The notes below the pieces were generated by a model. It saw only the letters and a list, made by a program, of their open reading frames with translations, searched no databases and had not been told where the DNA came from. Both the position numbers and the translations under genes were made by a program. Positions 1,432-33,729 of a stretch of DNA of 36,800 nt are shown one piece after another. The stretch's first letter is position 1, and each line of letters starts with the position of its first letter. Source of the stretch: Dyella sp. EPa41 (GTDB lineage: Bacteria; Pseudomonadota; Gammaproteobacteria; Xanthomonadales; Rhodanobacteraceae); contig NZ_BCPR01000045.1 in the NCBI RefSeq assembly GCF_016586165.1, positions 1 to 36,800 of the forward strand, in the 5' to 3' direction.

Positions 1432-1699
1432 GAACCTGTCTATGCCTGTTCCATGCCCCGCGCCGGGATCTGCTTGCCCGCAGGACCAGGAAGAACGAAT
1501 GGAGTGTATGTCGATACACGAATGAGTGATGACGCAGGGCGGCGTGCAAACAGACCCGGCCCGCGGGGTTGACGCTGAGCGCGCGCCAGCTGGTGGCGCC
1601 TGGCTTGACCTGACCGGCCAGTCAGGCGCTGCGCCACGCACCACCAGCTGGCGCGCGCTCAGCGTCAACGCGGGGTATGGAACAGGCATAGACAGGTTC
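1432..1699. repeat. Structured intergenic repeat element, copy 1
   Basis: The element fills the ccmB-ccmC gap almost exactly, starting right after the ccmB stop and ending 2 nt before the ccmC ATG. Its ends form a 31-bp inverted repeat (1432-1462 with 1669-1699), perfect over the outer 23 bp and with one G-T apposition further in. Inside lies a conserved core in plus orientation: GGAAGAACGA near 1489-1498, a hairpin at 1504-1519 (GTGTAT, GTCG loop, ATACAC), then GAGTGATGACGC at 1524-1535, flanked by an imperfect stem (1462-1476 with 1547-1560). A second, perfect 29-bp stem pairs 1568-1596 with 1641-1669. The same core and layout recur at 20093-20280 and, inverted, at 31621-31855. Confidence 0.85.
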
Positions 1700-19048: not shown

Positions 19049-19355
19049 TTTTCCCTCTCCCTGTCGGTGAGAGGGGATGAGGGGCGGATGCTCGCGTGAG
19101 AGCTTCCACTTGCCAAGTCTGAGGCAAGATGGGCCCCTCACCTCGGTCCTCTCCCCAAAGGGGAGAGGAAGAAAAGCGGGAGGCGGGCCGCAATGGACGA
19201 AATCAGCGCGCTTTCCCCTCTCCCCTCCGGGGAAAGGGTAGGGTGAGGGGCGGGTGCTCGCGTAACAGCGTCCACTTGCCAAGACTGAAGCAAGATGGAC
19301 CCCTCACCACGGTCCGCTCCCCTCCGGGAGAGGAAGAAGCAGGAGGCGATTCGCA
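19049..19355. repeat. Tandem intergenic repeat between sdhB and sdhE, two units
   Basis: The 316-nt gap between sdhB and sdhE is filled by two diverged direct copies, roughly 19049-19210 and 19211-19370. Shared blocks include GAGGGGCGG, TGCTCGCGT, TCCACTTGCCAAG, GCAAGATGG, CCCCTCACC and GAGAGGAAGAA. Each unit contains self-complementary CCTCTCC/GGAGAGG pieces able to form hairpins. The first unit ends in GGGAGG and GCAATGGACGAAATC (19180-19206). This mirrors the ribosome-binding site and first codons of sdhE (GGAGGCGATTCGCAATGGAT), so the duplication includes the start of sdhE. It resembles the CCTCTCC-rich intergenic repeats common in proteobacteria. Confidence 0.75.
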
Positions 19356-20092: not shown

Positions 20093-20280
20093 AGAGTCTG
20101 GTTTCATATTCCAAGTGCCTCGCGCCGGGTCTGTTTGCCCGCAGGGCAAGGAAGAACGAGGGAGTGTACGTCGGTACACGACTGAGTGATGACGCAGACC
20201 TGTGGACAAACAGACCCGGCCCTTCGGGTTGGGCTTGAACAAGCCCAACCCGAGGTACCTGGAATACGAAACCAGACTCT
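20093..20280. repeat. Structured intergenic repeat element, copy 2
   Basis: Same family as 1432-1699, in plus orientation, ending 19 nt before the lolC start. Outer arms 20093-20122 and 20251-20280 form a 30-bp inverted repeat with two mismatches and one G-T. A perfect 14-bp stem pairs 20124-20137 with 20207-20220, continuing after one mismatch into CCGCAGG/CCTGTGG. The central hairpin is at 20164-20179 (GTGTAC, GTCG loop, GTACAC). The single-stranded blocks GGAAGAACGAGGGA and GACTGAGTGATGACGCAG flank it. A second hairpin at 20226-20251 (GGGTTGGGCTTG, AA, CAAGCCCAACCC) is perfect over 12 bp. It leaves only a short stretch (20029-20092) after the ygfX-like gene. Confidence 0.85.
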
Positions 20281-31629: not shown

Positions 31630-31855
31630 CGATGGCCTTCTCGCCGTGCAGCTTGTCGTTGAGCGGTTGCCTGTCGGGTCAAGTCGCGCATTGCCGCCCG
31701 GCGGCCACGCAACGGCGACCCTTCCGGCCGCGTCGGTTTGCGCCCAGGCCGGCGTCATCGCCCAGTCGTGCATTGACATGCACTCCTTCGCTCTTCCTTG
31801 CCCAGCGCGCAAACCGGTCGCGGCGCGGGCTGCAAGGAGACCACCATCAGGCTCT
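31621..31855. repeat. Structured intergenic repeat element, copy 3 (inverted)
   Basis: Reverse-strand copy of the family at 1432-1699 and 20093-20280. Read on the minus strand it carries GGCAAGGAAGAGCGAAGGAG, the hairpin GTGCAT-GTCA-ATGCAC (31768-31783) and GACTGGGCGATGACGCC. The flanking stem pairs about 31726-31743 with 31807-31825 (GGTTTGCGC paired with GCGCAAACC). Outer arms are shorter and more diverged: AGAGCCTGA at 31621-31629, including the kdkA stop, pairs with TCAGGCTCT at 31847-31855. A weaker second hairpin lies around 31689-31712. It ends 6 nt before the next gene's ATG at 31862. Confidence 0.78.
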
Positions 31856-33456: not shown

Positions 33457-33549
33457 GGAGAGGTGTCCGAGTGGTTGAAGGAGCACGCCTGGAAAGTGTG
33501 TATACGGCTTATCCCCGTATCGCGGGTTCGAATCCCGCCCTCTCCGCCA
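33457..33549 (+). tRNA. tRNA-Ser (anticodon GGA)
   Basis: The 93-nt sequence folds as a class II tRNA. The acceptor GGAGAGG pairs with CCTCTCC before discriminator G, and the D-arm contains GTGGTTGAAGGAG. The anticodon stem CACGC/GTGTG encloses CTGGAAA with anticodon GGA. A long variable arm (TACGG..CCGTA) and T-arm CGGGTTCGAATCCCG follow. The CCA end is encoded. It reads UCC and UCU serine codons. A truncated copy lies 201 nt upstream. Confidence 0.96.

Positions 33550-33619: not shown

Positions 33620-33729
<110 letters not shown>

Follow-up and report, generated by a model that had tools for sequence, protein, structure and literature searches.

The window, by which we mean the whole stretch of 36,800 nucleotides analysed here (Dyella sp. 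EPa41, contig NZ_BCPR01000045.1, positions 1 to 36,800), carries three copies of a structured repeat. Copy 1 is flanked by the genes ccmB (TIGR01190) and ccmC (TIGR01191), which are read in one direction; the neighbours of copies 2 and 3 are a lolC/E-type gene (TIGR02212) and the gene for 3-deoxy-D-manno-octulosonic acid kinase (NF002475), respectively, and all four profiles match above their cut-offs. An earlier sequence-only reading had reported three loci with a common layout, and all three are indeed present, with the exact ends given below. Two models appear in the list and throughout: R1, a covariance model built from 19 core sequences of the window's own genome, and R2, a model built from nine module A sequences.

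1432..1699, + strand: element copy 1 (268 nt); the genes on either side, ccmB and ccmC, are on the - strand
1461..1563, + strand: module A of copy 1 (stem 2, GA-step core and central hairpin); R1 match, non-independent as copy 1 is part of the R1 training set; R2 71 bits
1504..1519, + strand: central hairpin of copy 1, GTGTAT-GTCG-ATACAC, with covarying pairs
1568..1669, - strand (by polarity): hairpin 2 of copy 1, standing where module B would be, though R2 does not detect a module B here; arms 1568-1604 and 1633-1669, 95% complementary
20094..20279, + strand: element copy 2 (186 nt), upstream of the lolC/E-type gene; hairpin 2 short
20123..20223, + strand: module A of copy 2; R1 match; R2 71.8 bits
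31622..31854, - strand: element copy 3 (233 nt), decayed, downstream of the kinase gene
31724..31825, - strand: module A of copy 3; R1 match; R2 55.9 bits

The central hairpin sequences first given for the three copies are found as described, at 1504-1519, 20164-20179 and 31768-31783. The outer arms pair at 30 of 31 positions in copy 1, 27 of 31 in copy 2 and 20 of 31 in copy 3. Since a control with the spacing of copy 1, placed at every 7th window position, reaches a maximum of 19/31, the outer arms of copy 3 are unconvincing by themselves. Copy 1 folds much better than its shuffles on both strands, with z values of -14.0 and -16.2.

The window also holds a tRNA-Ser (33457-33549), with a partial copy of 94% identity, not called by ARAGORN, in front of it (repeats 33252-33332/33451-33531) and the small SRP RNA (33628-33724) after it. 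A pair of 82-nt direct repeats (19075-19156 and 19241-19322; 88% identical, 166 nt from start to start) appears by eye to be unrelated to the element.

Distribution and fold of the family

The window's genome amounts to 4.92 Mb in 165 contigs. A BLAST search of it with copy 2 gave 21 matches, two of them the query's own arms, leaving 19 places, and R1 found 24 places at E<=0.001. The sequence-only reading had proposed a covariance-model search of related genomes, and with R1 the matches extend far beyond its three copies, to 94 of the 197 genomes of the window's family (17 of 26 genera). R1 also matched 59 of 299 genomes sampled from the order and 16 of 369 sampled from the class, the own genome being counted each time; the other 15 of the class sample belong to ten families outside the order. 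Some genomes reach 24 copies, and the copy numbers per sampled genome are lower bounds, obtained with stricter filters and with at most 20, 13 or 10 candidates per genome scored (family, order and class, respectively). Among named relatives the exact core pattern occurs in Dyella, Rhodanobacter and Frateuria (15 stretches). The family is found in many gamma-proteobacteria and is larger than first reported.

When plasmids were searched, a query from genome G315 matched one Xanthomonas sacchari plasmid and, over 33 bases, Methylobacterium; more distant queries gave partial plasmid matches in Azotobacter, Halomonas, Methylophaga and Pseudomonas, and the window copy as query gave no plasmid match. 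The Xanthomonas plasmid (NZ_CP010410.1, locus L346) is typed non-mobilizable, and its element copy adjoins an annotated cytochrome c gene, the end of which touches the match. No element match was found in the phages searched, nor in the viral contigs searched with the Dyella-type core. A 20-base pattern gave two matches (L342 and L343), but R2 finds no module in either, and they were put down to chance; carriage by phages was rejected.

For the fold, 227 core matches were reduced to 172 unique sequences and 152 representatives, 126 of them with both ends. Having been picked through the core, this sample under-counts core-less forms. The family measures about 262 letters, and 98 of the 126 elements with both ends fall between 260 and 269 nt. 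An alignment of 104 full-length elements gives an outer stem of 29 pairs; inside it lie, in order, stem 2 (which includes the core and a 6-bp hairpin), the mini-hairpin CCCNNNGGG, and hairpin 2. Watson-Crick pairing reaches 90% or more at 25 of the 29 outer pairs in these 104 elements (G.T prevails at pair 24-243), and several pairs of the outer stem and of hairpin 2 run through all four Watson-Crick types at about 86-99% pairing. The compensatory stem changes first claimed from three copies are borne out by the 19 cores of the own genome, in which 12 of 25 pairs have changed on both sides and the covariation score is reached by none of 500 shuffles; slid structures score far lower.

The flanks of the central hairpin had been described as conserved, unpaired sequence. 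They are conserved, but they are not simply unpaired: GA stands opposite GA at columns 62-63/96-97 in 122 of 124 elements, at 66-67/92-93 in 118 of 124 and at 70-71/88-89 in 99 of 124, with all three GA/GA steps present together in 94 of 124, and the two-pair steps between them covary, switching between A-T and G-C types. On the other strand the GA/GA steps read TC/TC. The arrangement suggests sheared G.A pairing within the core. The loop of the mini-hairpin is GNA in 74 elements, TNC in 40 and of another type in 10 (n = 124). At four loci in three genomes (L006, L009, L106 and L110) an extra GC-rich palindromic insert containing GGCGCCATGGATGGCGCC lies in or near the CCCNNNGGG loop, and this insert, in the loop at the junction of module A and hairpin 2, resembles a nested small repeat.

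Insertion sites, ends and transposases

Are the repeats mobile? The sites of copies 1 and 2 were compared in 19 same-genus genomes. Site 1 is unfilled in 17 of them, fully filled in G113 and filled by a shortened form in G134, while site 2 is unfilled in all 19. One of the 17 unfilled examples of site 1 (L236, in G090) retains an apparent left end alone, joined directly to the right flank, which looks like loss of the element by deletion at a short shared word. Two further genomes, G171 and G041, carry near-identical element copies at differing sites. Elements that start with GAGCCTG (69 of 126) have TNA on the left in 38 cases and on the right in 38, with identical 3 bp in 17; those that start with GGGCCTG (25 of 126) have a duplicated TA in 16, and the remaining 32 start otherwise. 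Overall, identical 3-bp flanks occur in 20 of 126 elements compared with 4 in a shifted control, the target duplication being absent or decayed in most copies. We take TNA and TA to be the targets of the IS5 subgroups IS1031 and IS427. With a size below 500 bp, terminal inverted repeats, target duplication and sites that are unfilled in relatives, the repeats are almost certainly a non-autonomous mobile element of the MITE type. They appear to be without coding capacity, judging from stems that vary through all four pair types.

On one strand each TNA target reads as a stop codon, TAA or TGA, and several elements abut gene ends (for 3' ends on the right, the median is 6 nt). As the target duplication restores the stop, insertion at such codons may do no harm. 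Crude ORF calling around 125 elements placed 28 in divergent, 46 in tandem (27 + 19) and 9 in convergent contexts; on one side or both, 42 of the 125 have no gene close by, and for 37 the overlap with a predicted ORF exceeds 100 nt. The tandem contexts (27 vs 19) reveal no bias in transcription orientation.

Strong folding, the sharing of site 1 with G113 and, in shortened form, with G134, and a T run at the right end of one element (L015; T runs were judged by eye only) would also suit intrinsic terminators or some other host regulatory RNA held at fixed sites. Considering that sites 1 and 2 are unfilled in nearly all relatives, and that convergent pairs are the rarest of the two-sided contexts (9/83, by the crude gene calling), a terminator or other fixed regulatory RNA is highly improbable.

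End-only palindromes of 40-51 bp, a kind of mini-MITE mostly at CTNAG-type targets, are found in G171 and G041 (L202, L206 and L208), and the same two genomes hold partial derivatives with the same ends. Since such forms occur, the core is probably not needed for movement. What, then, could act on the ends? In G041 an 846-bp IS (L163), partly nested in a second copy and with its ORFs split across frames, yields transposase pieces that match NF033580 at 139 bits (cut-off 110), PF13340 at 79 bits, and PF01609. Its ends, GAGCCTGTTCAAAGTCTC, are one base off the GAGCCTGTTCAAAATCTC ends of the element copies in G041. Over L163:1340-2600 this IS5-type element looks inserted into, or rearranged with, its own copy, the 3' part being directly repeated. 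In G171 a broken IS5-type relative with similar ends lies at a contig end, and the genome also carries what looks by eye like a deletion derivative. An IS partner with shared ends is seen in these two relatives only. Two other candidate partners were rejected: L162 has a different terminal repeat and L164 no clear one, and in both the end motif is absent or has five mismatches at best.

An autonomous IS5-type element encodes a transposase; in the window's genome (G000), the repeats included, a profile search gave no PF13340, NF033580 or PF01609 match anywhere. NF033580 was above its cut-off in 3 of 14 genomes, and PF01609 gave no match in G000, G187, G113, G078, G064 and G049, despite 5 to 20 or more element copies. 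The sequence-only reading had stated that a match to a known IS-derived MITE would remove the novelty of the repeats; their ends are indeed IS5-like in two relatives, but their interior is unlike the IS sequences examined.

Inverted modules and the folding strand

In distant relatives (L335-L341 from other orders, and L144 from family f8 of the same order) the bottom strand of hairpin 2 resembles module A. R2 was run on 13 loci. Module A is present in 11 of them, namely its nine source loci plus L344 and L345 from plasmids. Next to A, on the opposite strand, R2 finds a module B at 42-78 bits in 9 of these 11, and it finds none in L157 or L344; for comparison, the strand opposite to module A itself gives 16-32 bits in the nine loci where it is listed. 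One module B is also found by R1 (E 0.042). Plain alignment of A with B gave a clear match in L335 and L144 and a score modestly better than 200 shuffles in L341, L339 and L337; in L336, L340 and L338 it did no better than the shuffles. The R2 search then served as the test of A against B. In L345, from a plasmid of Azotobacter chroococcum, the sequence at position A is by eye of the type found at position B in L335. Very likely, then, the element consists of two homologous modules of about 104 nt in inverted orientation, A on the top strand and B on the bottom strand.

The situation in the window's own family and in family f2 is different. R2 was also applied to 24 loci of families f1 and f2, of which some have a short hairpin 2; it recognised module A in every one and module B in none, so in the window's own family module B would be degenerate or lost. 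An R2 match in L090 (E 0.18) was rejected as module B because it lies away from hairpin 2. Homology of the second module is shown only in the distant relatives; for the window's family, position and strand bias suggest it. The adjacent second hairpin of the sequence-only reading is present, but from its position it would be an inverted, degenerate relative of the central module.

Which strand folds? A stem that is used single-stranded tolerates G.U but not A.C, and an A.C on the top strand is a G.U on the bottom strand. The twin arrangement therefore predicts opposite wobble biases, and the biases had been measured before the modules were found. The counts are by column and over unique contexts, which are partly linked by descent. 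They gave 52 G.U vs 11 A.C in the core-proximal part of module A (23 vs 7 in columns with at least 80% Watson-Crick pairing), 22 vs 64 in the lower part of hairpin 2 (20 vs 54 in such columns) and 15 vs 111 in its middle (11 vs 49). The outer stem, with 61 vs 49 (44 vs 43), has no strand bias, and none is clear at the base of stem 2 (9 vs 6), in the central hairpin (5 vs 2) or in the apical hairpin (11 vs 9). The directions are alike in the own (9), order-distant (14) and other (101) subsets of elements. Most of the loci were collected through R1, which prefers G.U over A.C; this may add to the bias of module A but not to that of hairpin 2, which lies outside the model. An earlier count from local alignments (G.U vs A.C: stem 2 114/37, outer stem 372/549, hairpin 2 178/588) was discarded, its outer alignments having overrun into stem 2 and the flanks.

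Selection is thus probably strand-polar, acting on the top strand in module A and on the bottom strand in the position of module B. The conserved loops and covarying stems had originally been read as the mark of selection on RNA or single-stranded DNA. A strand-polar fold is indeed conserved, but the complementarity of the outer stem is not sufficient; since the column count reveals no strand bias there, it is by itself no proof of selection at the RNA level.

How, then, do the arms stay paired? Close relatives were compared as 32 disjoint pairs, the two elements of each differing by less than 10%. Double changes from one Watson-Crick pair to another number 31 in 927 cells of the outer stem and 19 in 670 cells of lower hairpin 2. 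A hand calculation from independent changes expects about 1 for each of these two domains; in the other domains 1 or 2 were observed. The rates of change are similar at paired sites (4.7%) and at unpaired ones (5.8%). Coupled change is thus fast. Selection, template switching, or both may keep the arms paired, and the outer-stem data do not choose among them.

Perhaps the repeats are plain IS-derived MITEs, with the interior a passenger and the complementarity of the arms a product of template switching in quasi-palindromes rather than of structural selection. This would account for the excess of isolated double Watson-Crick changes, which are mostly transitions (39 vs 16, in 31 of the 32 close pairs, L285/L294 being omitted), and for the unbiased outer stem. 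In hairpin 2, copy 1 and G113 differ in a block in which, by eye, one arm seems to have been copied from its partner, and the flips between GNA and TNC loops fit hairpin-mediated inversion. Template switching, however, leaves the opposite G.U/A.C biases of two domains unexplained, and a passenger interior sits badly with the conserved GA/GA steps, with the narrow length range (in a sample chosen through the core) and with the retention of one core in distant families though the stems change. We therefore consider a plain MITE unlikely, and prefer a MITE whose interior is itself selected as a fold.

Possible roles and relation to known repeats

As a whole, a MITE family with inverted folding modules is the best explanation, and we would put its probability at roughly 0.6. 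IS5-type transposases acting in trans would move the elements by their ends alone, as the existence of short core-less derivatives suggests. The modules would act as single strands in folded form, with read-through RNA from the adjoining genes as the likeliest setting. Since G.U/G.T pairs and GA steps are tolerated by RNA and single-stranded DNA alike, the signals in the fold do not separate the two, and we lean only slightly towards RNA.

If the modules acted as single-stranded DNA, they might serve, for example, as hairpins for a single-strand transposase or a replication enzyme, as is proposed for REPINs and RAYTs. Strand polarity suits any single-stranded use, and stable GA steps and GNA loops are DNA motifs too. 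On the other hand, IS5-type movement, which the targets and ends resemble, is double-stranded, and the core-less derivatives are found at other sites. A role as single-stranded DNA is therefore rather improbable, even though an inverted doublet with hairpins and compensatory changes is also what has been reported for REPINs (PMC3116915).

Returning to modules that fold in RNA, their inversion has a simple consequence: a transcript entering from either side carries one correctly folding module, the one nearest the incoming polymerase. That first-transcribed module would determine how stable the joint transcript is or how it is processed, and would so soften the effect of the insertion. Such tuning of transcripts is a tentative proposal. 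It is also possible, with the odds somewhat against it, that the family is a two-faced mobile RNA element, whose effect on host transcripts would be independent of the orientation of insertion and whose single pair of modules would travel on different sets of IS5-type ends across the gamma-proteobacteria.

How do these repeats compare with known ones? Rfam yielded nothing at its gathering thresholds, whether for the element copies of the window or for nine distant loci; sub-threshold matches of microRNA type, to sX9 and to others were read as matches to a long hairpin and rejected as evidence of membership. No description of the family was found in the open-access literature, subscription papers being mostly outside that coverage. 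The first impression of an undescribed-looking family has thus held up. Integron attC sites were set aside by inspection alone, from the order of their boxes.

Like IS5-type MITEs, the repeats are short, have terminal inverted repeats and TNA or TA targets, and carry ends near those of the IS5-type elements in G041 and G171. They differ in an interior that is conserved, strand-polar and present on more than one type of end, with inverted homologous modules in distant relatives. REPINs and BIMEs share with them the inverted doublet of a structured unit and the compensatory changes (PMC3116915). REP units are palindromes tagged by GTAG or CGTC. Their length is given as 20-40 bp (PMC3733652), and the modules here, with about 104 nt and IS5-like ends, are set apart by size. 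The first reading had left the choice between mobile element, structured RNA and BIME-like unit open; mobility and a conserved strand-polar fold have been upheld. The CIR sequences of Caulobacter are likewise conserved and made of two long inverted-repeat arms with a linker, but they measure about 110 bp, have GANTC at the loop and belong to alpha-proteobacteria, and the section of the review dealing with them describes no homology between modules (PMC2229807). The same review, in the part concerned, presents ERIC/RU-1 and Correia/NEMIS as small mobile repeats whose transcripts fold, with reported or proposed effects on mRNA; as described there they differ in their length of 107-155 bp, and no twin strand-polar modules are mentioned (PMC2229807).

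The repeats of the window thus belong to a widespread and apparently undescribed MITE family, whose distant members contain inverted, homologous, strand-polar modules and for whose fold a function is inferred. The interiors of bacterial MITEs are usually taken as remnants of an IS. Here an interior is kept across distant families and on several types of end, and the wobble pairs record the strand that folds. The wobble-asymmetry test is simple, and applied to other families of repeats it can distinguish a strand-polar structure from a palindrome as such. The family itself provides a testable case of selection on the effects that a MITE has on host transcripts.
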